DNA of 48,911 nt, taken from contig NZ_JADEXQ010000042.1 of NCBI RefSeq assembly GCF_015207035.1, forward strand, positions 1 to 48,911, written 5' to 3'. The position numbers were made by a program, and so were the translations under genes. This document shows, one piece after another, positions 29,511 through 32,396 of the stretch; the first letter of the stretch is position 1; each line of letters opens with the position of its first letter. The stretch comes from Romeriopsis navalis LEGE 11480. Its GTDB lineage: Bacteria; Cyanobacteriota; Cyanobacteriia; Leptolyngbyales; Leptolyngbyaceae. The notes beneath the pieces were generated by a model. The model was given only the letters and a program-made list of their open reading frames with translations, was not told the origin of the DNA and did no database searches.

Positions 29511-29732
29511 ATGGGTTCTTATTGTAACGCCTGTGATGACTTGGGCACAGCGGCGATCTACAGCTTGGGGATGGATGAAGCCATCGAGCCGCTCGCCCGA
29601 AATCCTGGGCAGTGGCATCGCCAGGCTGGAAATTATCTGGCTTTAGAGCATGATCAACATTATTTTCAGCGGATTCTCGACAATCGGGGCGAAAATGAAC
29701 TTAGTCGGCTCGGGTATGTGCCCCATGGCTGA
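29511..29732 (+). CDS. Small open reading frame upstream of the TCD1-like gene
   Basis: This 73-residue frame begins with ATG 29511 in the gap after the divergent tex start. Its TGA (29730-29732) overlaps the putative TCD1-like start ATG 29725 by 8 bases, so translation could be coupled. The predicted peptide (ending LSRLGYVPHG) is hydrophilic, not repetitive, and not one I recognise. There is no obvious ribosome site. It may be a real small gene, a leader, or a remnant. Confidence 0.35.
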   Translation: MGSYCNACDDLGTAAIYSLGMDEAIEPLARNPGQWHRQAGNYLALEHDQHYFQRILDNRGENELSRLGYVPHG

Positions 29733-29940
29733 AGAACTGATTATCTTAACTGACGATGATTTTGAGCCGGATGGCGATCGCAAAGGTTGGGATGAGCCTT
29801 TGCGCCGGGTAACTGGGAAGGTACGCGAAGTAACGCTCGGTCCAGCCGAAGTGGAAGCAAAGATGTCGGCGTTTGTCCGATCGGTTGAGCAGATTTTCCA
29901 ACGGACAAATTCGGCGCTGCCACCAGAGTCTGGTTTATAG
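29725..29940 (+). CDS. TCD1-like (trypsin-co-occurring domain) protein, N-terminal part, ends at an in-frame TAG
   Basis: ATG 29725 opens MAEELIILTDDDF, then a region with VREVTLGPAEVEAKMSAF and a helical segment, ending at TAG 29938-29940. The pattern (an N-terminal acidic beta strand, then a helix) fits the first part of TCD1 proteins. The same frame continues without another stop into a segment that reads as the missing C-terminal half (separate entry). TCD1 proteins are small accessory partners in NTPase/protease/caspase conflict modules. Alone, this 71-residue product would be a truncated domain. An alternative ATG lies at 29716. Confidence 0.6.
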   Translation: MAEELIILTDDDFEPDGDRKGWDEPLRRVTGKVREVTLGPAEVEAKMSAFVRSVEQIFQRTNSALPPESGL

Positions 29941-30054
29941 TTAGACGAAATGGAATTGGCAGTCAAAATTAGCGCGAAGGGTCAAGTCAAACTGATTGCG
30001 GGCGGCGAAGCCACGATTAAGCTAAAGTTCAAACGATCGAAGCAGACAGAATAA
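29941..30054 (+). pseudogene. C-terminal half of the TCD1-like domain, separated by one TAG
   Basis: Directly after the TAG the same frame encodes LDEMELAVKISAKGQVK followed by LIAGGEATIKLKFKR, which fits the C-terminal strand pattern of TCD1 (a conserved K(I/L)SAx...A(G)xEA core). It ends in TAA at 30052-30054, which overlaps the ATG of the caspase gene by one base (TAATG). An internal ATG at 29950, 9 nt after the TAG, could permit re-initiation. So the domain is either a recent nonsense mutation, translated in two pieces, or read through. A sequencing error cannot be excluded from sequence alone. Confidence 0.55.
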
Positions 30055-31556
30055 TGGCAAATAATTGGGCGATCGTTGTTGGCGTAAATGAATATGACTT
30101 TTTGCCGGAGGCTTCGTTGAAGTTTGCGGTGAGTGATGCGCTGGCGATGCGATCGTTCTTATGTGAGCAGGTAGGATTCCCAGAAAATCAGGTTTTGCTA
30201 TGTGGTGATGGGCAGGCAGGCACAAAGAAAGCAACACGCCCAGTGCTGCGGGATATTTTGTTGCACCAGCTAGCACGGGCAAGGGAAGCCGATAATCTGT
30301 GGTTTTTCTTCAGTGGGCATGGCTTGGATGAGCATTTGATGCCGATCGATGGCAATCCTAAAGACCTTCACGATACAGCGATTTCGATCCATTTTGTGAC
30401 AGAGCAACTGCGAGCTTGCAAGGCAAAAAATATCGTGCTGATTTTGGATATGTGTCGCAATGAAAGCCGGGATACGGGGCGTAAGAGTCTGGAATCGGTG
30501 GAGGCCTCGCTGCGGCAGTTAGTCAAAGAACGCGAGGGTCAGCAGGGAATTATCACGCTATTTTCCTGTGGTCGGGGGCAGAGTTCCTATGAGCTAGCGA
30601 CACTGCAACAAGGCGCATTTACCTATGCGCTGCTGGAAGGACTAAAGCAGACCAGCATTCTGAAGGATTTGGAAACGTATTTGGCGCGGCGGGTGCCGGA
30701 GCTACACCAGAAAGCCGGAAAGACAACGCGGAAGCAGGTGCCCTTGGTAATTCCCGAGCCGGGATGGAAATACGAGGAGCCGATTTTGAGTGACTATGCG
30801 ACGGTAGTAGATGTGTCGCGACTGAAGGAACTGGCGATCAATGCGGAGTGGAATGGTGACTTCGAGAAAGCAATTCAATACTTGAAGCAGATAAATCTGG
30901 CGGCAAGTGATGTGACTGATAAGGAACAGGCTTTAAATCGAATTCTGAACTTGATGGGGCAATCACCACCAGCCCCAACAGTCGCGCCAGCATCGACTGC
31001 CAAACCCAATCGATCATCGCCACAACCCTCACCGGCAGCTACACCCAGTGAGGGGATTGACTCTATTCCCCTCGAATCACAGCAAGGCGTGGACTATTGC
31101 AAACTTCGAGATTTACTGAAGGCGCGCAAATGGGAAGAGGCAGATCAAGAAACTCTAGCAGTAATGCTCCAAGCGGCAAATCGCAAGTCAGCCGGGTGGC
31201 TTGATTCTGATTCACTCAAGCAGTTTCCATGCAAAGATTTAAGGACGATAGACCAACTCTGGGTCAAAGCTAGCAACGGACACTTTGGCTTCTCAGTGCA
31301 GAAAAAGATTTGGGAAGAATGCGGCAGACCAATGTCTCTTGGCAAAGATTGGGACCGATTCTGCAATAAAATCGGCTGGAAGAGCGGCAGCAGTTACGTG
31401 AACTACTCAGACATGCCGAAAAATGCTCGAGATTTTCTGAAGGGAGAATTACCCGTTTTTTTTGGTTTTGTTTTTTTTGGTGTGTGGGGTAGTGATGAGG
31501 TTTGGTTCTCTTTTCTCGCGCAAAGACTTGTGAACTGTAGCACGCAACAGTCCTAG
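30054..31556 (+). CDS. Caspase-family (C14) peptidase fused to a GUN4-like domain
   Basis: The 500-residue protein begins with a caspase/metacaspase p20-like domain (residues 1-240). Its catalytic His is 89 (FFFSGHGLDEH) and its Cys 134 (LILDMCRNESRD), so both catalytic residues are intact. A helical region (250-305) and a Pro/Ser/Ala-rich linker (305-340) follow. Residues about 345-495 match GUN4 (LRDLLKARKWEEAD, FPCKDLRTIDQLWVK, NGHFGFSVQKKIW). Canonical GUN4 binds porphyrins and stimulates Mg-chelatase. Fused to a protease it may be a sensor or adaptor. The start overlaps the stop of the TCD1-like frame (TAATG), implying translational coupling. Two T8 runs sit in the GUN4 C-terminus. Confidence 0.88.
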   Translation: MANNWAIVVGVNEYDFLPEASLKFAVSDALAMRSFLCEQVGFPENQVLLCGDGQAGTKKATRPVLRDILLHQLARAREADNLWFFFSGHGLDEHLMPIDGNPKDLHDTAISIHFVTEQLRACKAKNIVLILDMCRNESRDTGRKSLESVEASLRQLVKEREGQQGIITLFSCGRGQSSYELATLQQGAFTYALLEGLKQTSILKDLETYLARRVPELHQKAGKTTRKQVPLVIPEPGWKYEEPILSDYATVVDVSRLKELAINAEWNGDFEKAIQYLKQINLAASDVTDKEQALNRILNLMGQSPPAPTVAPASTAKPNRSSPQPSPAATPSEGIDSIPLESQQGVDYCKLRDLLKARKWEEADQETLAVMLQAANRKSAGWLDSDSLKQFPCKDLRTIDQLWVKASNGHFGFSVQKKIWEECGRPMSLGKDWDRFCNKIGWKSGSSYVNYSDMPKNARDFLKGELPVFFGFVFFGVWGSDEVWFSFLAQRLVNCSTQQS

Positions 31557-31649: not shown

Positions 31650-32396
31650 CTAGGGATCCGGCGGTTTCTGCGGATATTGATTGGCCTGTACAAATTTCTC
31701 CGCCACCGCCAATATTTCCGCTGCCGGCAGATCCCAATCGTCCCACAGAGTTTTCTGTCCCGGACTCACTTTCTTTGGCTTCCCCCGCGCCCGAATCTTT
31801 GCCAGTAGCTTGCTACCCCACCGATTTCGATGTGCCGACTTCGGCTGTGGCTGATATCGCCGACAAAACTGGCGATACGCCGCCGCACATAGTTCCAGAC
31901 TCGCCGCCAATGCCAGAAATGCCGGATGCCACTGCGTCAGCCCATCCACCGTCAACCGGTCATAAATCCCGTAATTACTAAAGTCATAAAAGAACCCCGG
32001 CTGCATCGCCGCTGCTTTCGGATTCCCATGAATGTAACGCAACGTATTCAGCGCCCGCCGATAATCACTATTCGGAAACCCCGTGCTGTGATAACGCTTC
32101 TCCCAAAAATGCCCCGTTCGATTCAACATGCGGTTAAAACACATCGCACTGTACCAATTCAACCAATGCATCACCCGTGGCAAATCCTCCGGCACCCGTG
32201 GCTCAATCAGGTAATGCACATGGTTACTCATCACACATAGGCCGTACAGCTTAAACCCAAACTTCGCCCGACACTGCGACAACGCATACAAAAACACCTG
32301 CCGACATTCTCGCCGCGTCAATCGAAATTCGCGATTGTTACAGCGAATAGTAACGTGATAGCAATAATTCCAGTTCACAATTCGCAATGGACGCAT
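31650..32396 (-). CDS. REP-associated tyrosine transposase-like (Y1/RAYT) protein
   Basis: This 248-residue protein has the HUH metal motif in CVMSNHVHYLIEP (His-hydrophobic-His) and a downstream NWYSAMCFN tyrosine region, in the order used by RAYT proteins. Conserved TGHFWEKRYHS and LRYIHGNP motifs match the family. RAYTs nick and join single-stranded DNA at short palindromic REP hairpins; many are domesticated, not freely mobile. The gene is full-length with no frameshift. I see no clear flanking REP pair; a small hairpin CCTGG-CA-CCAGG lies near 31622-31633. It is convergent with the caspase-GUN4 gene. Confidence 0.87.
   Translation of the reverse strand: MRPLRIVNWNYCYHVTIRCNNREFRLTRRECRQVFLYALSQCRAKFGFKLYGLCVMSNHVHYLIEPRVPEDLPRVMHWLNWYSAMCFNRMLNRTGHFWEKRYHSTGFPNSDYRRALNTLRYIHGNPKAAAMQPGFFYDFSNYGIYDRLTVDGLTQWHPAFLALAASLELCAAAYRQFCRRYQPQPKSAHRNRWGSKLLAKIRARGKPKKVSPGQKTLWDDWDLPAAEILAVAEKFVQANQYPQKPPDP

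Follow-up and report, generated by a model that had tools for sequence, protein, structure and literature searches.

A Pepco gene split by a private in-frame TAG beside an intact caspase-GUN4 gene in a cyanobacterial draft genome: probable recent nonsense mutation in a two-gene module

Here we describe a cyanobacterial Pepco gene that is paired with a caspase gene and interrupted by an in-frame TAG private to this copy, together with a downstream caspase that is intact and retains its His/Cys pair. By linking profile matches, homologue alignments, and substitution patterns, we conclude that the locus is probably an ordinary Pepco-caspase pair whose Pepco gene has recently acquired a nonsense mutation and whose caspase is still intact. 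A fresh nonsense mutation was among the options offered by the original prediction, and it is the best supported of them, given that the TAG is private among the 114 matches listed in a class-wide scan and that both halves carry signs of past purifying selection.

The window, that is, the whole 48,911-nt stretch of DNA analysed, is contig C42 of a 6.47-Mb draft genome in 251 contigs, and all features of the locus lie on its forward strand. The first half of the Pepco gene (29725-29940), identified by translation and profile match, starts at ATG 29725, runs for 71 codons before the TAG, and encodes a variable N-terminus and a long helix. The TAG (29938-29940) occupies the position of residue 72, directly 5' of the first beta strand, and is followed by a second half (29941-30054) of 37 codons that encodes a three-stranded beta region and ends in TAA (30052-30054). 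Within this second half an in-frame ATG (29950-29952), a possible restart site, lies 9 nt 3' of the TAG. At the TAATG junction (30052-30056) the Pepco TAA overlaps the ATG of the caspase gene by one base, and the latter, encoding a caspase (Peptidase_C14) with a C-terminal GUN4 domain, is an intact open reading frame of 500 aa (30054-31556). The TAG split and the TAATG overlap with a caspase-GUN4 frame had been claimed earlier, and every coordinate was confirmed. The nine neighbouring genes scanned include those for Tex, histidine kinase/receiver proteins, an IS200-like transposase, NmrA, DUF697, and CBS proteins. The IS200-like (Y1_Tnp) transposase gene is found just 3' of the caspase gene, at 31650-32396 on the opposite strand.

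The two halves are one domain, Pepco (PF24393). Taken separately, the first half scores 19.9 bits (profile positions 16-69) and the second 38.5 bits (76-112), the second alone already exceeding the 27-bit cut-off; read through the TAG, the joined frame scores 68.9 bits over positions 16-112 of 112, which bears out the earlier claim that reading through unites two halves of a single domain. The split domain is not a chance match, because an intact homologue with 75% DNA identity is present in the same genome. An uninterrupted reading frame, which is expected of a working Pepco gene and is not a property of the profile, is absent here owing to the TAG. In an AlphaFold model of low confidence (mean pLDDT 61), residues 40-64 form a helix and residues 75-82 the first strand; the TAG lies in between, so a 71-residue product would lack the sheet if the model holds. 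A search for a solved Pepco structure returned none, with one match at chance level, and the term "Pepco domain" was not found in the literature text searched.

The family had originally been named as TCD1-like, which the profiles do not uphold: the match to Trypco1 (TCD1, PF19493) reaches 15.7 bits (E 0.023), under the cut-off of 24.6 bits. The locus resembles Trypco1 of the VMAP ternary conflict systems in having a small partner beside a peptidase gene and in this weak profile similarity, but differs in that its Pepco falls below the cut-off and its peptidase is a caspase, not a trypsin. The proposed link to an NTP-dependent conflict system likewise found no backing, as none of the nine neighbouring genes scanned encodes MoxR, vWA, VMAP, or iSTAND.

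The caspase frame matches Peptidase_C14 (7.7e-19, 68.7 bits) and GUN4 (2.8e-37). Residues G88-H89-G90, D132, and C134 fall in columns that are invariant among 38 caspase homologues, and the His89/Cys134 pair is intact, so that both the profile match and the His and Cys expected of a member of the family are present. It scores 64.5 bits against NF047832 (EACC1-associated caspase), whose cut-off is 140; PADLOC matched its generic caspase model and, from PD-T4-6, the GUN4 portion, and nothing else.

Pepco-caspase pairs occur in many cyanobacterial genomes. Among 45 Pepco loci, sampled from the best matches and not at random, 35 have a caspase frame starting between -11 and +20 nt from the Pepco stop, which supports, as the ancestral state, the earlier suggestion that translation normally reaches the end of the second half. 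Seven of the 35 pairs overlap, the window locus included, and the one-base TAATG overlap recurs in the sample only at L110. The C-terminal domains in 38 caspases comprise FGE-sulfatase (15), GUN4 (15), STAND NTPase (two), and WD40 (one). The window pair shares with the others the same small domain, its 5' position, the spacing or overlap, and the caspase N-terminus; it differs in that its Pepco is split by the TAG and lacks four hairpin residues. Decay of such pairs is ordinary: the caspases of four sampled pairs (L094, L102, L117, and L131) are damaged, and at L071 it is the Pepco that has decayed. A comparable architecture is known from the two-gene systems EACC1/EACC2 (Kaur et al. 2020, eLife 9:e52696; 2021, eLife 10:e70394). 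As here, one small component stays constant and is encoded beside a caspase whose C-terminal domains vary; the difference is that EACC1, found mainly in actinobacteria, carries a transmembrane helix (same references), and that the window caspase lies under the NF047832 cut-off.

Three other Pepco genes above the cut-off occur in the same genome, all of them stop-free. The closest paralogue, on contig C119, is the intact homologue mentioned above; it has GAG at the TAG site and lies 7 nt 5' of a 518-residue caspase-GUN4 gene. An intact relative in a Chamaesiphon MAG (L037) shows the same arrangement with CAG at the site. When window positions 29725-31556 are compared with the C119 operon (L011:4670-6578), similarity is uneven: 77% in Pepco, about 18-58% by 40-residue block in the caspase domain, 93% over 40 residues in the centre of GUN4, and again high in the last GUN4 residues. 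This mosaic pattern suggests exchange, or parts that differ in age.

Across the family (42 genomes), no other match to the C119 Pepco bears a stop. When these genomes were scanned with the profile, a decayed Pepco copy (L071, G015:C1:4719877-4720117) was added, which matches in two weak pieces containing a TAA and a TGA. At the level of the class (390 genomes scanned), one of the 114 Pepco matches listed (E up to 1e-8) contains a stop, namely the present copy; the threshold favours intact copies, so 1/114 is not a decay rate. Compared codon by codon, homologues carry Q, K, E, R, T, S, C, N, A, or L at the TAG column, CAG and AAG being common. The homologue alignment that had been proposed as a check thus finds the TAG unique among the class-wide matches listed, in a comparison where the genus is represented by the present genome alone, with no close strain.

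Relative to C119, the first half has a pN of 0.11 and a pS of 0.65, and the second half a pN of 0.10 and a pS of 0.80. Judged from these ratios, both halves were under strong purifying selection in the past; most of the divergence thus arose when the gene was still coding over its full length, and on that scale the TAG is recent. A three-way count with C119 and the Chamaesiphon relative, in which numbers are small, assigns to the window copy 15 silent and 10 replacing private changes in the first half and 7 silent and 2 replacing in the second, and such numbers do not establish that decay sped up once the stop was in place. Other private departures include a deletion of four residues from a Gly-rich hairpin in the second half, which is kept in 44 of 44 others aligned, a change of a near-invariant Gly at residue 55 to Glu, and a V-to-M replacement. 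Over 28 conserved columns the window copy departs at nine, tied second highest among 43 copies, with more departures in L127 and an equal number in L123, and many of these departures are not unique to it. The additional private changes fit weakened constraint without proving it.

Against a recent nonsense mutation stand the intact caspase and TAATG junction, the presence, 9 nt 3' of the TAG, of an ATG at a site that is V/I/A in the homologues checked, just where a restart would need it, and the count of only two private replacing sites in the second half. These features would suit a two-piece Pepco, in which translation stops at the TAG and restarts at ATG 29950 to give associating helix and beta pieces with caspase coupling kept. 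We consider this arrangement unlikely. The ATG is in frame and new to the window copy: the two closest relatives have GTG there, and all homologues checked encode Val, Ile, or Ala; the TAG lies between helix and sheet in the low-confidence model, and replacing sites are not in excess in the second half. However, the ATG needs no more than a GTG to ATG transition, which is not an improbable event, and it lacks a clear Shine-Dalgarno sequence in front of it; the beta half has also lost its four hairpin residues, and no homologue among the 114 class-wide matches listed is split likewise. The further proposal that such a stop and restart sets the amount of the beta piece and the caspase made from the operon is a little more doubtful still.

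An error of base calling or assembly, the real gene lacking a TAG, is about as doubtful. The assembly is a draft in 251 contigs, and the TAG is one substitution away from codons common at its column, but consensus substitution errors are rare and one such error does not explain the other private departures. Least probable of all, and very much so, is programmed or regulated readthrough of the TAG that would yield full-length Pepco at a low level. The frame remains open and conserved after the TAG, and the stopped column tolerates many residues. The signs of a recoded gene are nevertheless absent: no relative among the 114 class-wide matches listed shares the stop, none of the tRNA loci run through ARAGORN yielded a CTA anticodon (71 tRNA matches listed genome-wide), and PylS had no match in the genome at E 0.001. 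TAG is, moreover, a common terminator in the window, ending 13 of 31 long ORFs. The switchable operon envisaged in the original prediction thus has nothing positive in its favour beyond the nearby ATG, with neither a CTA tRNA nor PylS found and with no TAG-bearing relative.

The tRNA survey drew attention to contig C18, where about 30 tRNA genes form a tandem array on one strand (L162:403-4308; G000:C18:23202-27107), single tRNA genes being scattered over other contigs. A tRNA-like sequence at C18:26609-26706 (L162:3810-3907; 43.6 bits) has an extra stretch in its T loop. Considered as a suppressor tRNA, it was rejected: its anticodon loop is CUUGCAA by cmscan, not CUA, and ARAGORN did not call it. 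Neither did ARAGORN call a weak match in the array at C18:25847-25941, which was analysed by folding only. The array further contains an 83-nt piece (L162:3663-3745) resembling positions 1077-1160 of the 23S rRNA model (RF02541, 55.9 bits), with helices largely kept.

In the preferred explanation, a recent nonsense mutation, the locus belongs to a module of two genes that recurs in cyanobacteria. One gene encodes Pepco, a small, non-enzymatic partner composed of a helix and a three-stranded sheet; the other follows it closely, often with an overlap, and encodes a caspase with an exchangeable C-terminus (GUN4, FGE-sulfatase, STAND NTPase, or WD40). We infer that Pepco serves its caspase as an adaptor or regulator. 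GUN4, proposed as a tetrapyrrole sensor by Kaur et al., may report tetrapyrrole or photosynthetic state, and the module may act in immunity or cell death. A recent nonsense substitution would have removed the beta region in its entirety, probably leaving a 71-residue product without function; the caspase would then be an orphan or be served in trans by the intact Pepco of C119. The TAG probably reflects no more than ordinary decay of the gene.

The locus illustrates the close pairing of Pepco, in many cyanobacterial genomes, with caspases of varying C-terminal domains. Should translation of its caspase continue, a constant need for Pepco as the inhibitor of this caspase is excluded, unless C119 supplies Pepco; if the orphan caspase proves to be expressed and harmless, such a role for Pepco becomes unlikely. 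The coexistence in one genome of an intact paralogous pair and a copy that is naturally Pepco-null but keeps its caspase intact would make the role of Pepco testable.
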